In this document: piece after piece, positions 24,697 through 62,650 of the stretch
Numbering within the stretch: the stretch's first letter is position 1
Layout of the letters: each line of letters opens with the position of its first letter
Source: Sporosarcina ureae DSM 2281
GTDB taxonomy: Bacteria; Bacillota; Bacilli; Bacillales_A; Planococcaceae
Length of the DNA: 64,000 bases
Direction: 5' to 3'
Assembly (NCBI RefSeq): GCF_000425545.1
Contig: NZ_AUDQ01000006.1
Coordinates: 62,001-126,000, forward strand
The notes under the pieces: model-generated
Seen by the model: the letters and a program-made list of their open reading frames with translations, nothing else
What the model was told of the DNA's origin: nothing
Databases searched by the model: none
Made by a program: the position numbers and the translations under genes

Positions 24697-24793
24697 TTGA
24701 TTGTAGCACCCGTGCTACAACCGCACTAAACAGGTTCAAGTATTCGTAGGTTGAATCACCTGTCAAGGCGAGTCTGTATAATTAGAGGAGGTG
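24697..24793 (+). ncRNA. Ribosomal L21 mRNA leader
   Basis: Between spoIVFB and rplU lies a structured leader: hairpin tgtagca-cccg-tgctaca, then a second stem-loop around caggttcaa...ttgaatcacctg. Position and hairpins fit the Firmicute L21 leader, which is thought to give autoregulation by L21 or its neighbours. Boundaries are approximate. Confidence 0.65.
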
Positions 24794-49424: not shown

Positions 49425-49634
49425 TCGTTGTTAAGGAGGGAAATGCGATAGTGTTACGGTATTTTGCTTGGGTTCGTAAGTAGTGGCTCTCGTTGTGGTT
49501 TTGGTAGGTGCTTTTCTTTATATGAACATAAAAGAGGACTTTATTTAGTCTAAAAAGTAAGCTACGTATTATCCAATCAGTTGTCTTATGTCGAAAGGCA
49601 ATCCCTCACGTCGCATAGAAAGAAAACGACAGTA

Positions 49635-49763
49635 GTTGATCGGAGTGGAAGGCGGCGACTCCCGATGGATCAGCCCGACAGGTGAGACAACTAAAGGGAG
49701 CTTGCGACCTAGTTGGCTCACCGCGGGCCCATGGGAAAGCGTCCGCCTGGAACGCAGATCAAC
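49635..49763. repeat. Dispersed palindromic repeat, copy R2
   Basis: 129 bases with perfect 7-bp inverted ends (gttgatc / gatcaac). An internal palindrome pairs ggtgagacaac with gttggctcacc. It is near-identical to R3 in reverse orientation, including the blocks aaagggagcttgcgacct and gggaaagcgtcc. It ends 88 bases before the recJ start. Confidence 0.85.
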
Positions 49764-49851
49764 GGCGTCATCCCACTCCCAATCTTCCCATATCGTTTCC
49801 TTTCAGTCTCCATCCACATTCGCTATAATAAGAACAGAGGATGTGAAAGCA

Positions 49852-50125
49852 TTGATACAATCCAAAAAAAGATGGCAAATCGATCGGCCAGACGAAGAAC
49901 TCGTCAACCAGCTCGCGAAAGACTTGAACCTTTCCACGATGCTGACGAAAATACTCGTTGCACGCGGAATCACCACAAGCGAACAAGCAAACGCGTACTT
50001 GCACATGGACGAGTCCAACTTGCATGACCCATTTTTATTACATGACATGCAAAAAGCTGTCGATCGCATCCAACATGCAATCGATACACAGCAACAACTC
50101 ACAATATATGGAGATTATGATGCCG
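49852..50125 (+). CDS. recJ: recJ exon 1 (single-strand-specific 5'-3' exonuclease, N-terminal part)
   Basis: From TTG at 49852 (IQSKKRWQIDRPDEELVN; spacing matches B. subtilis MLASKMRW) to the intron at 50126. It encodes 91 codons plus one base, ending in the DHH-family motif I, YGDYDA, then the first base of the next Asp codon. AGAGGA serves as ribosome site; in-frame codons upstream run through the R2 repeat and are not used. Joining to exon 2 restores DADGVTS without any frameshift. Without splicing, the frame runs only a few codons into the intron (GATRF) and stops. Confidence 0.93.
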
Positions 50126-52897
50126 GTGCGACACGTTTCTGAGTGAAAAGCTTAGACACTAGGATAAATCCTAGGAGAACTGATTTCTTGATAGGTGGAA
50201 TGATTGGGTAACGCCTTGAAACGCCTACTCTGATACTCCGACAAGCCTTTCAACGGTTATATTGAAAGGTTTGAAGCTCGGTGAAGTCGGCAGAGAGATA
50301 CCGTAAGTTAGAGAAAGCTCAGCAAGTATCTAATACGAAAGCTGTCCAGAGGTGGATGGTGTGTCCTATATGCCGGGAGTCCATAAAATATCTATGGTTA
50401 GAATGTGCTGCACAAGCACTGACGAATCTCTGAATGTACGGGTCTAGACGTAGTTGTTACAGAAATGTAACAGGTGGCAGTGCCATCGTGTGTGTGGGCG
50501 AGTAAAAATCTGGCGTTATGAAAACCCATAACTTGTTACAGGCAAGTTCAAGCATACAGGACTATAGGAGAAACCTAAGGATATATGTACGGATAAAGAA
50601 ATCGGAACGTGGAAAACGAAGGATGTGGAGGTATTAACCTACCTGCGAAACAGTTCAGTAGATAAAGGGGCGACCTATTAAAACTGATTTTCCTTTCGTG
50701 AGAGTGGAGCCATAGTACCTTTGAAACCATGATAATAAGTGGTGGAGGGATAGGCTCTAGTCGGAAATTTCAAAGACTTATAAATGCATAACAGACACAG
50801 ATTCGAGTACGACTAAAAGAATCACCACTTGAGAGAGGGGTTGATGTCTGTGGCAAATTCACAAATCGTAAAACATGTTAAAAAGTCCAAACTCAGAAAT
50901 GCAGAGTATTACCACATGCAAGATACACTTGATATGCTGCATGAACAAAGCAAAAATGGCAGTAGTTTCAGAAACTTAATGAGCATGATTAGTTCTTCTG
51001 AAAACATTAAGTTGGCGTATCGAAATATCAAGAAAAATACAGGTAGCAAAACGGCTGGCGTTGATGGTCGAACAATCGAGCATATATCTAAGCTAACCGA
51101 GGAGCAATTTGTTGGCTTTGTTAGAAATAAGCTTCGAGATTATAAACCGAAAGCAGTTAGACGAGTAGAAATACCAAAGCCGAATGGGAAAATTAGACCT
51201 TTAGGAATTCCTGCAATTTGGGATAGGATAGTCCAACAGTGTATACTACAAATTCTTGAACCCATAGTTGAAGCAAAATTCTCAGGGAGAAGTCATGGAT
51301 TTAGACCAAACCGTTCAGTTGAGAATGCGATAGCACAAAGTTATCGTCTAATGCAGAATTCAAAAATGTCATATGTAATTGATATAGATATTAAGGGATT
51401 CTTCGATAACGTGTCTCATGCCAAGTTGTTAAAACAAATGTGGGCAATGGGGATACAAGATAAGAATTTACTCACTATTATTTCGAAAATGCTCAAAGCG
51501 AAAATCAAGTTGCCAGATGGACAAATCATCGAGAATGAGAAAGGTACGCCACAAGGAGGGATTTTGTCTCCTTTGTTATCTAATATCGTTCTCAATGAAC
51601 TTGACCGCTGGATTGAAAGCCAATGGGAGGATGTTCCTACTAAAAAGGATTATCTGCAATACCATAAAAAGAAAAATAATCACGCTGATAAAGGTTACAA
51701 ATACAGGATGCTCAGGAAATCCAAGCTAAAAGAATGTTATATTGTTCGATATGCGGATGATTTCAAAATCTTTTGCAGTAATCCTAATCACGCCAAACGA
51801 TTATTTATCGCGGTACAAAACTGGCTGAAAGAAAGACTTGGTTTAGAAATAAGCGAAGACAAATCAAAAATAGTGAATCTCAAAAAGGGCTACTCTGAAT
51901 TCTTAGGGTTTAAGATGAAACTAATTCCTAAGGGTGATAAATGGATTGTGAAGAGTCATATGTGCGATCAGGCAGTAAGACGCACAAAGAAAAACTTGAA
52001 GCAAATCATTAACGGTATTCGACATGATAGCGGTGTTAATGACCAAGCAAGAAAAATAGCACTCTACAACTCGACTGTAATAGGACTTCATCAATATTTC
52101 CGTACCGCTACAATGATTTCCGAAGATATGGGGAACATTGCATACGAAGTGAATGCATGCATGAAAGACCATCGTATGAAAAGGCGAATTAAGAAAACAG
52201 GTGTGATAACATCTGATTTCATTAAGAAAGAATACGGGAAGAGCAAACAATTAAGATTTATATCACGAGATCCGCTCCTACCCATTGGATATATTAAACA
52301 CAAAAATCCGATGATGAAGCGAAACACGGTGAATGCATATACAAAAGAAGGTAGAGAAGAAATTCACAAAAACCTGACGACTGTTGATATTAATATTCTT
52401 CGATTTTTGATGGAGCATCCAATTCCACAACGAAGTATAGAGTACAACGATAACCGTATAGCATTATATTGTGCACAAAGAGGAAAATGCCATGTAACTG
52501 GGCAAATGTTAAACCCGATGACGATTCATTGTCATCATAAAGTACCACGGTTGCAAGGTGGTACTGACCAATATAACAACCTCTGTCTCGTTGATAAGGA
52601 AATCCACATCTTAATCCATGCAATAGATGAAGAAATAATCTTAAAGTATAAAAAGTTACTAACCAACTCACAAAGCCTGAATAAGATAAATACGCTACGA
52701 AAGAAACTGGAACTACAACAATTAACAATCTAATTGGACGATTAGACATACAAACGAACAAGTGAATTCTGTTAAGTTATGTAGATTACCAAAGTTTTGA
52801 AATTTTTCGATGGAACGCCGTGTGAGGTGAAAGTCTCACGCACGGTGTGAAGTGGGGGAAAAGCTGGCGATAAACTCAAAGGCTTACCTATCACTAT
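50126..52897 (+). mobile_element. Group II intron inserted in recJ
   Basis: 2772 bases. It begins GTGCGAC (consensus GUGYG) at 50126 and ends CTAT (AY ending) at 52897. Exact excision joins g|ac into an Asp codon and rebuilds GDYDADGVTS in recJ. Domain V is 52812-52849: stem gtgag / ctcac with a GAAA-type cap, lower stem ccgt / acgg. The triad is CGC (52816-52818) with the G-U wobble kept. Domain VI pairs agtgggg with cctAtcact, leaving A52890 bulged eight bases from the 3' end. The 5' 700 bases form domains I-III with no other gene. The reverse transcriptase frame lies in domain IV. Confidence 0.96.
50844..52733 (+). CDS. Intron-encoded reverse transcriptase/maturase with HNH endonuclease
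   Basis: About 629 residues, intact. The RT domain covers about 40-360: AGVDGRTIEHISK, PKPNGKIRPLGIPAIWDRIVQ, RSHGFRPNRS, IDIKGFFDNVSH, GTPQGGILSPLLSN and the catalytic YADD (VRYADDFKIF) with GLEISEDKSKI. The maturase domain X follows (about 400-490). The C-terminal HNH endonuclease has CHVTGQ, HCHHKVPRLQGGTDQYNN and IHILIHA. It promotes splicing and retrohoming. ATG at 50844 follows GAGAGGGG; TTG at 50829 is possible. The host gene recJ is on the same strand. Confidence 0.95.
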   Translation: MSVANSQIVKHVKKSKLRNAEYYHMQDTLDMLHEQSKNGSSFRNLMSMISSSENIKLAYRNIKKNTGSKTAGVDGRTIEHISKLTEEQFVGFVRNKLRDYKPKAVRRVEIPKPNGKIRPLGIPAIWDRIVQQCILQILEPIVEAKFSGRSHGFRPNRSVENAIAQSYRLMQNSKMSYVIDIDIKGFFDNVSHAKLLKQMWAMGIQDKNLLTIISKMLKAKIKLPDGQIIENEKGTPQGGILSPLLSNIVLNELDRWIESQWEDVPTKKDYLQYHKKKNNHADKGYKYRMLRKSKLKECYIVRYADDFKIFCSNPNHAKRLFIAVQNWLKERLGLEISEDKSKIVNLKKGYSEFLGFKMKLIPKGDKWIVKSHMCDQAVRRTKKNLKQIINGIRHDSGVNDQARKIALYNSTVIGLHQYFRTATMISEDMGNIAYEVNACMKDHRMKRRIKKTGVITSDFIKKEYGKSKQLRFISRDPLLPIGYIKHKNPMMKRNTVNAYTKEGREEIHKNLTTVDINILRFLMEHPIPQRSIEYNDNRIALYCAQRGKCHVTGQMLNPMTIHCHHKVPRLQGGTDQYNNLCLVDKEIHILIHAIDEEIILKYKKLLTNSQSLNKINTLRKKLELQQLTI

Positions 52898-54969
52898 ACG
52901 GCGTAACAAGCGTCACCGTGCTAACGACAGCGCTCGAACGTCTTGGTGCAAAAGTGAACTTCGCTATTCCTAACCGTTTTGAACATGGCTACGGACCGAA
53001 CAGCGACTATTTTGAACAACTACATACAGAAGGCACAGAAGTCCTTATCACCGTAGACAACGGAATTTCAGGCATCGAACAAGTCGCATTCGCGAAGTCG
53101 CTTGGGATGACGATCATCGTAACTGACCACCACGAAATGGGCGACGTACTACCTGAGGCGGATGCGGTCATTCACCCACGTCATCCAGAAGGTAATTATC
53201 CATTTGGAGAACTCGCAGGTGTAGGAGTGGCATTCAAACTCGCTTCTGCTTTACTTGGAGAACCACCGCTCGATTTGCTAGAATTCGTAGCGATCGGCAC
53301 CATCGCAGACTTAGTTCCGTTAGAAGATGAAAATCGTTATATGGTGAAAGAAGGTATCCGCAGATTACGTCGCACGCAGCGTCCTGGCATCAAAGCGTTG
53401 ATGCAAGTGAGTGGTCATGAGCAGAGCGCTTTATCGGAAGAAACGATTGGCTTTACGATCGGTCCTCGTCTGAATGCACCGGGCCGACTTGGCGATGCGG
53501 ATCCAGCGGTCGATTTATTAAAGGCGGAAGATGAGCAGCTAGCACTAGGAATTGCGGAAGAATTGAATGATTTAAATAAAGAACGGCAACAATTAGTGAA
53601 AGAAATCGCGAAAGAAGCGCAAGAGCAAGTGGAAATCCGTTATGGCGATCATGTGCCTCACGTGTTAGTCATAGAAGGTGAAGGCTGGAATCCGGGTGTT
53701 GTCGGTATCGTATCGTCGAGACTGACGGAGAAATATTACCGTCCATCCATCATTTTGTCGCTCGATCGTGAAACAGGAATTGCGAAAGGTTCTGCGCGCA
53801 GTATTGAAGGCTTTGATTTGTATAAGGAACTGTCGAAGAATGCGTCGATTCTGCCACATTTCGGAGGACATGCGATGGCTGCCGGGATGTCATTGAAAAT
53901 AGAGGACGTCGAATTATTGCGTTCAAATTTGAATGAACAGGCGAAGGAAGTATTGACGGAAGAAGATTTACAGCCCATTTTATCTATCGATGTACCACTG
54001 GGATTGGATGAAATTGATATCGCCTCCATCGAAGCGCTAGAGAAAATCCGGCCGTTTGGTATGGGATTCCCGAAGCCAGTTTTCTTATTAGAGCAGCTCG
54101 ACACGATCTCTGTCCGTAAAATAGGGTCAGCGAAAGATCATTTGAAGCTTGAAATGGGCGATCGTAGTGAACGTCTAGATGCGATATTTTTCGGAGCGGG
54201 AGCATTGGCGGACGAAATGGCACCGCAAAGTAAGCTTAGTTTGACGGGTGATTTGCAGATCAATGAATGGAATGGTAACAAGAAAGCACAGTTACTTGTA
54301 GAAGATGTGAAATGTGACGAGTGGCAGTTGTTCGATTACCGTGGAATTCGGGAGCCTGCTAGATGGTTGCCACTGATTCCAGATCAAGCACAGTTTATTG
54401 CGTTTAGTGAAGAAGCCGTCCAACATTTCGCGCCATTTTTCAAAGAAATACCGATTTCTTTGATAGGACGCGATGAACTTCATCCGTCTTCTGCTATCGT
54501 ATTACTCGATATGCCACAGGCCGAAGAACAGTTGAAGCAAGTGATGGAAAAGACGCTTGCCAACCGAGTGTATCTTCACCTGCATGTGCATGATTCGATG
54601 TACTTTGAAAAGATGCCAGATCGTCAACAATTTGGTTGGTATTACAGCTTTTTGAAAAAACGTGAGACATTTGATCTGTACAATCAAATTGATATGCTTT
54701 CCAAACATAAAGGTTGGAAAAAAGATATGATAAAGTTCATGACAAAAGTGTTTTATGAACTAGAATTTGTTACACTAGAGAATGGTAAGGTGACGATGCT
54801 CACTTCTGCAGACAAACGTGATTTGGCAGAAGCGCCATCGTATAAAAAACGCCAACAGCAAATCAAGCTGGAAGAGTTGTTGCTTTATGCTCCGTATCAG
54901 GACTTAAAGAAGGTATTCAACTCTTTACGCGAGACGGAAGCTGTTGAGGAGGAAAAACTGTGGACTTAA
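52898..54969 (+). CDS. recJ: recJ exon 2 (DHH and DHHA1 domains)
   Basis: Continues recJ after the intron: [17 protein letters not shown], motif [12 protein letters not shown], motif [11 protein letters not shown], then the DHHA1 motif [10 protein letters not shown], an OB-fold region and a C-terminal domain. Spliced length is about 781 residues, like B. subtilis RecJ. RecJ degrades single-stranded DNA 5'-3' in RecF-pathway and mismatch repair. All further catalytic motifs are intact. The last ten bases overlap the apt start. The piece cannot be translated as a separate active enzyme, because motif I is on exon 1. Confidence 0.94.
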
Positions 54970-55472
54970 AAAAGTATGTAACGACTGTAGACGATTATCC
55001 GAAACCGGGTGTCAGCTTTAAAGACATCACGACGATTATGGATAACGGAGAAGCATATAAATATGCGACAGACCAAATTGTCGAATATGCGAAGGGATTG
55101 GACGTAGATATTATCGTAGGGCCAGAAGCGCGCGGTTTTATCATCGGATGTCCTGTTGCCTATGCGCTTGAAATCGGTTTTGCACCGGTTCGTAAGCCTG
55201 GCAAATTACCACGCGAAACGATCTCGGTCTTTTATGACTTAGAGTATGGACAAGATGAATTAACGATTCACAAAGATGCTATCAAGCCCGGCCAACGTGT
55301 ACTCGTTGTCGATGATTTACTTGCAACTGGCGGTACAGTCGGCGCAACAGTCGAATTGATCGAGAAACTAGGCGGTGTAGTAGCTGGCTGTGCATTCTTA
55401 ATCGAACTATCGTACTTGAACGGTCGCGAAAAGTTGACGAATGAAAACATTAAGGCATTAATTACGTACTGA
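54960..55472 (+). CDS. apt: Adenine phosphoribosyltransferase
   Basis: 170 residues. [18 protein letters not shown] near residue 9, [10 protein letters not shown], and the PRPP loop [13 protein letters not shown]. It salvages adenine to AMP. GTG start overlaps the recJ stop by ten bases, behind GAGGAGG; its translation may be coupled to spliced recJ. Confidence 0.96.
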
Positions 55473-58502: not shown

Positions 58503-58758
58503 TAATCGAATTAATTCATACACCGATGATGTGGAAAATACCTTTACTTCAGGCTGGAAAGAGAACGGGGAACTTGGCTGAAATTCCCTGACAGTACCGT
58601 AAGGCGAAGAACACCACGGAGGATTCATGCTGAAATTAGTAGGCGTGGACGGAACCGGCCGTTATCCGGATTCGAGTGGGCACTTTTGTGTCAATTTGGG
58701 TGGAACCGCGGAAGCTACAAGCTCTCGTCCCTGTTTTATTAGGGATGGGAGCTTTTTT
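58503..58758 (+). promoter_or_regulatory. T-box riboswitch of hisS
   Basis: The T-box sequence TGGGTGGAACCGCGG lies at 58697-58711 and is followed by a terminator stem aagctctcgtccct / agggatgggagctt (58719-58751) and TTTTTT. Stem I ends near 58620; a CAC histidine codon occurs in acaccacgg (58611-58619) as the likely specifier, exact register unresolved. Uncharged tRNA-His would favour the antiterminator and hisS expression. Confidence 0.88.
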
Positions 58759-62448: not shown

Positions 62449-62650
62449 GTAGAAATCCTGAAGTGTTCGTCATTTGTAAATTAGTTTTGACCCAACATCT
62501 TATCGTCGGGAGTTCAACGTTATAGCTTGGATGACATGCCTTTAATCGGGACGCCAAAAGAGTTATACAGGACACCCACCTGCTATTAGCGGGTTCAAAG
62601 CGATATTCAAAGACGGCACAGTCGGGATTTCACTTTCTCACAACAATTCA
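62449..62650 (+). ncRNA. ssrS: 6S RNA (BsrA-type)
   Basis: A transcript of about 190-200 bases with closing stem aaatcctg / cgggattt (5' end near 62453, 3' arm at 62623-62630), plus the blocks gttttgacccaacatctta, ggatgacatgcctttaat and acacccacctgctat that match Bacillus 6S-1 RNA. It mimics an open promoter and binds sigma-A RNA polymerase. Location between aspS and tcdA equals bsrA in B. subtilis. Confidence 0.92.

Follow-up and report, generated by a model that had tools for sequence, protein, structure and literature searches.

Structure of the recJ locus

The window, a 64,000-nucleotide stretch of the Sporosarcina ureae DSM 2281 genome, contains recJ in two exons separated by a group II intron, with apt directly downstream. 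All features of the locus lie on the forward strand.

49852–50125, forward strand: recJ exon 1, comprising 91 codons plus the opening base of the split Asp codon and, once joined, reading in frame into exon 2; matches TIGR00644 positions 2–65
50115–50119, forward strand: IBS2 (UUAUG), exon positions −11 to −7, predicted to pair with EBS2
50120–50125, forward strand: IBS1 (AUGCCG), exon positions −6 to −1, predicted to pair with EBS1
50126–52897, forward strand: group II intron, 2772 nt, GTGCGAC...CTAT, matching Rfam RF02004 and RF00029; boundaries the same in 22 other species
50175–50387, forward strand: intron domain I core (RF02004, 185 bits)
50449–50453, forward strand: predicted EBS2 guide (CGUAG), its G residues facing the third bases of codons at −8 and −11
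50510–50516, forward strand: predicted EBS1 guide (CUGGCGU), 7 nt with one skipped and G opposite third codon position −5; register calibrated on introns L163 and L151
50844–52733, forward strand: intron-encoded reverse transcriptase/maturase with HNH endonuclease, 629 aa (TIGR04416, 347 bits; RVT_1)
52813–52897, forward strand: intron domains 5 and 6 (RF00029, 58 bits), with CGC-type domain 5 and bulged branch A at 52890
52898–54969, forward strand: recJ exon 2, the remainder of the split Asp codon, DHH, DHHA1, RecJ_OB and C-terminal domain
54960–55472, forward strand: apt, overlapping the recJ stop

The original prediction, that a group II intron at 50126–52897 lies within a recJ codon and that its excision restores an unbroken RecJ, was borne out by a complete intron with Rfam matches at both ends and by the joining of 49852–50125 to 52898–54969, which gave a single 781-residue frame containing the motif GDYDADG. 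The split codon, described there as the second Asp of this motif, is instead the third and last, that is, the second of the DAD triplet. Translation probably begins at TTG 49852, with GTG 49843 as the alternative. The 575 N-terminal residues of the joined RecJ matched the solved RecJ 8y30 (E = 1.5e-150), and the predicted spliced product carries the full architecture of TIGR00644, DHH with motif I, DHHA1, RecJ_OB and the C-terminal domain. No second recJ was found in the host genome (100% complete, 3.3 Mb, 35 contigs), in which the intron is present in one copy. Because the same insertion occurs in the single-contig genomes G028, G063, G064, G101, G115 and G224, an assembly artefact was ruled out. 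The recJ–apt overlap was likewise as described, the recJ stop ending at 54969 and apt starting with GTG at 54960.

Directly 5' of recJ, the intergenic sequence at 49620–49800 belongs to a repeat family, with 52 genome-wide matches to a 200-bp stretch and a best non-self match of 90% over 158 bp. Rfam matches elsewhere in the window are a T-box leader (58517–58735), 6S RNA (62452–62632) and an L21 leader (24709–24785).

Features of the group II intron

The intron has the 5' GUGYG and 3' AY ends of group II introns (GTGCGAC...AT), a domain 5 with the catalytic triad and 2-nt bulge (RF00029), a domain I core (RF02004) with exon-binding sites defined by EBS1 and EBS2 pairing and, in the consensus fold, a domain 6 whose bulged branch A lies at −8. 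Domain 4 contains the reverse transcriptase (RT)/maturase, a usual though non-essential component, with YADD and HNH motifs and a TIGR04416 score above the cut-off. The intron is probably of type IIB and its intron-encoded protein (IEP) probably of class B, an assignment that agrees with the distribution in Bacillota. A second group II RT in the same genome (G000:C9:120400-121189) is a broken remnant with several stops.

Across the recJ introns, the consensus fold assigns 224 base pairs to the conserved regions; 97.7% of these pairs are kept and 83 show changes on both sides, and as the fold was predicted from the same alignment, this conservation is support for the structure rather than proof.

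Distribution of the intron among recJ genes

Within the genus, recJ is split at this codon in 7 of 68 species, the other 61 being free of the intron, and within the family the last Asp codon of GDYDADG is split in 21 of the 260 species with recJ. The empty site sought in related genomes is present in the recJ of most relatives, 239 of 260 species lacking the intron there. When one genome from each of 84,980 species was scanned by pattern, the recJ/intron junction turned up exclusively in Bacillota. Species with split recJ include members of Lysinibacillus and Kurthia. Hosts beyond the family are Bacillus sp. FJAT-42315, Bacillus sp. 522_BSPC, B. massiliglaciei, Pisciglobus halotolerans and an uncultured Firmicutes genome, bringing the total to at least 26 Bacillota species. 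The junction was found in 4 of 400 sampled Bacilli, and the intron is therefore rare outside the family. Both boundaries are identical in every intron-bearing recJ for which the two ends were available.

At the junction of one host (G129, L132), GDYDTDG replaces GDYDADG. In the Sporosarcina relative G032 (L146, G032:C13:387500-391000), recJ appears as two overlapping matches near TIGR00644 positions 101–110; this break lies away from the intron site and is attributed to a frameshift or sequencing error.

Horizontal spread into a single site

A single fixed site, shared by some sister species, together with a ribozyme tree that in part follows genera, would be compatible with an ancient intron passed down vertically in recJ and lost from most species. 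The intron DNA is, however, much closer between hosts than the surrounding RecJ proteins. The 5' DNA of the introns is mostly 85–97% identical, whereas RecJ proteins compared between genera mostly share 48–60% identity; introns this similar lie in hosts whose RecJ proteins are about 50–58% identical. In the clearest pair, Sporosarcina G047 and G156, the latter from a different genus, the intron DNA is 96.9% identical and the RecJ protein 55.9%. Moreover, the sister species G147 and G156, whose RecJ proteins are 90% identical, carry introns from different branches, and an AU test rejected a single clade (p = 0.0019). Together with the absence of the intron from most family species, these observations make vertical inheritance most improbable. 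Given this contrast between intron DNA and RecJ proteins, the intron spreads horizontally into one site, and retrohoming would be the simplest cause of its recurrence there. A search of plasmids for near matches found none with the recJ intron, and phage-borne relatives do not exceed about 50% protein identity.

Selection on recJ and its probable dependence on splicing

Without splicing, exon 1 would encode 91 residues before the frame runs on to a stop inside the intron. Between intron-bearing species, dN/dS of recJ is 0.03–0.10 over the whole gene, with IEP-less hosts included, and 0.05–0.17 for exon 1 alone where measurable. These values were computed between species pairs outside Caryophanon, Pisciglobus and G224, and as such are compatible with a very recent loss in one strain. 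The joined frames are open in all hosts. The main evidence for splicing is the conservation of exon 1, which would not be expected if it were left unspliced.

Inactivation by the intron, leaving a decaying pseudogene whose exons merely look intact, was weighed against this evidence, given that splicing of recJ is read here from sequence and that laboratory strains can often do without recJ. A decaying gene is nevertheless difficult to reconcile with purifying selection over both exons, even in hosts lacking the IEP, with joined frames free of stops in every host, and with IEP-less introns that have kept 96.7% of their ribozyme pairs while their IEP remnants carry stops. The pseudogene explanation is hardly credible. 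As this is the only recJ, its catalytic codon is split and its exons are under strong purifying selection, the supply of RecJ very probably depends on RNA splicing.

That dependence was part of the original prediction; its further suggestion, that repair and purine salvage are tied to conditions affecting splicing, found no support. As a regulatory switch, the intron would tune RecJ, and through the overlap apt, to growth or DNA damage, an idea for which a single-copy repair gene overlapping apt offers a setting. RecJ also helps Ll.LtrB retrohoming in Escherichia coli in some assays (PMC3636086), so that a feedback is conceivable and, by analogy, the intron in recJ may occupy the gene of a factor that helps its own mobility. 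However, the intron is patchily present and horizontally spread, and most relatives manage without it, and a regulatory role is very unlikely. Because of this patchiness and spread, the 61 of 68 congeneric species without it and the repeated loss of the IEP, the intron looks like a selfish element that is tolerated because it splices, rather than a regulatory device.

Loss of the intron protein and retention of the ribozyme

The RT frame is open in 12 of 13 full-length introns, the exception being G115, where it is broken at 480 residues, and intact IEPs across hosts show dN/dS of about 0.07–0.12 against that of the window, indicating purifying selection. In 11 hosts the IEP is deleted or decayed and ribozyme domains 1–3 and 5–6 are retained, the complete introns of this kind measuring 664 to 1741 nt, with the 664-nt form found in Kurthia senegalensis. 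The breakpoints differ, every one lying within domain 4, and at least seven changes of IEP state were counted on the ribozyme tree. All ten IEP-less introns tested have Rfam matches at both ends. In the IEP-less intron of G224 (L125), domain I is interrupted by a nested insert of about 285 bp (intron positions ~39–322) with inverted-repeat-like stretches, the other ribozyme parts being kept.

A search for group II RTs with TIGR04416 gave no match in the genomes G064, G147, G091, G077 and G484, of which G064 is a single contig and 100% complete and G077 a 90%-complete MAG. Weak RT matches in G224 and G156 were considered as maturases and rejected, being Drt2-like and retron-like instead. In total, seven genomes host an IEP-less recJ intron without any group II maturase; the intron of the window encodes its own. 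Short, apparently ORF-less group II introns (L160, L163, L164 and others) also occur at other sites, including in the maturase-less G064.

Splicing of the IEP-less introns could alternatively be performed in trans by the maturases of other introns, as is known in a cyanobacterium (PMC4424553). Three hosts with an IEP-less recJ intron (G105, G119 and G088) do contain other group II RTs, and in these the RTs might act in trans. As a general explanation this is unlikely, given the seven hosts without a group II RT, one of them a complete genome in a single contig. In hosts devoid of a helper protein, recJ appears to rely on an RNA that removes itself, although host proteins such as DEAD-box helicases could replace the maturase.

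Exon-binding guides and codon degeneracy

L163 and L151, two related introns that occupy other sites, served to calibrate the register of the exon-binding sites. In L163, the exon TTCTCG is matched by the guide CGAGAA immediately 5' of UAURAAA, and the EBS2 UGCCC pairs with GGGCA; L151 agrees. EBS2, located by alignment columns, is CGUAG in nearly all recJ introns and pairs with exon positions −7 to −11 in 23 of 24, other offsets giving at most nine. With one of its seven nucleotides skipped, EBS1 pairs with exon positions −1 to −6 in 22 of 25 introns (at most three elsewhere), and in G224, G129 and G115 it forms only five of six pairs. Pairing across a skipped nucleotide would be unusual and is put forward here as a model. 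An EBS1 that is a strict 6-nt complement of the exon was rejected, as no position was common to more than about one third of the introns.

Across from the third bases of GAY-TAY-GAY, at −5, −8 and −11, the guides mostly carry G, able to pair with either C or U, and CUGGCGU can pair with all four Ala codons by shifting the skipped nucleotide between two registers. In this way CUGGCGU decodes all 8 target spellings, a property of 8 of the 16384 heptamers, and CGUAG decodes all 4, as do 4 of 1024 pentamers. All 22 matched empty recJ sites in intron-free relatives would pair fully with the guides. Because G faces the third codon positions and EBS1 fits any Ala codon, the guide seems to read a protein motif and not one DNA spelling.

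Proposed life cycle of the recJ intron

The introns in recJ are in all likelihood a mobile, recJ-specific group II lineage at one codon, which would be spliced, retrohoming and guide-targeted and which repeatedly loses its protein. The ribozyme would fold in the recJ pre-mRNA and, with the maturase, excise itself and restore RecJ. The excised lariat and reverse transcriptase would then retrohome into the empty recJ of other species, reached by DNA transfer, with EBS2 (CGUAG) and EBS1 (CUGGCGU) setting the target and G wobble and the two registers tolerating synonymous change. Once lodged in a needed gene, the intron would be under selection for splicing alone, and repeated deletion of the domain 4 protein would leave a ribozyme-only intron that splices without a genome-encoded maturase. 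Spliced Ll.LtrB intron binds spliced mRNA and lowers host gene expression (PMC6003770); by analogy, a recJ intron that loses its protein could spare its host a similar cost. The broader reading is on balance slightly favoured: that the lineage may be passing, much as in organelles, from a mobile retroelement to an intron that only splices, inside a repair gene and with a motif-reading guide, and that at least seven hosts would excise the intron without a maturase and so depend on an autonomous ribozyme for RecJ.

Comparison with known introns

Most bacterial group II introns are located elsewhere than in housekeeping genes, and few lack an ORF (PMC4424553). In the openly accessible literature, the papers that bear on both group II introns and recJ treat RecJ as a retrohoming factor and not as an intron host gene. 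A precedent in a repair gene is the recA intron of Geobacillus kaustophilus (Chee and Takami 2005, via PMC3522654), which, as cited there, is also active and tolerated by splicing in a housekeeping recombination gene of Bacilli. It is reported in that account from one species, whereas the recJ lineage occupies one site in 26 species or more and has lost its IEP repeatedly.

The IEP-less recJ introns resemble C.te.I1 of Clostridium tetani, a class B-like, ORF-less intron in a Firmicutes genome without a group II maturase (PMC3919590, PMC4424553), which in 2015 was the sole such case among more than 1,500 copies (PMC4424553). C.te.I1, however, lies in a surface-layer gene region and undergoes alternative splicing, whereas the recJ introns have canonical ends, a single conserved codon and several independent IEP-less lineages. 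Organellar splicing-only group II introns (PMC4424553) likewise occupy housekeeping genes and have lost the IEP and kept the ribozyme; unlike these, the recJ introns are bacterial, and mobile IEP-bearing relatives persist at the same site. Ll.LtrB of Lactococcus (PMC6003770) shares with the intron of the window an IEP with RT and endonuclease and site-specific homing via EBS/IBS pairing, but is of type IIA and lies in a plasmid relaxase gene.

Bacterial group II introns are said to avoid housekeeping genes and to need a maturase. In the recJ series, a single intron at a single site can be followed through related hosts in its full-length, its half-decayed and its ribozyme-only form. This makes directly testable how a mobile retroelement becomes an intron that only splices, a step thought to precede organellar and spliceosomal introns. 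Guides that tolerate wobble point to a way in which an RNA-guided element may track a protein-coding target from species to species, which is relevant to targetron design.
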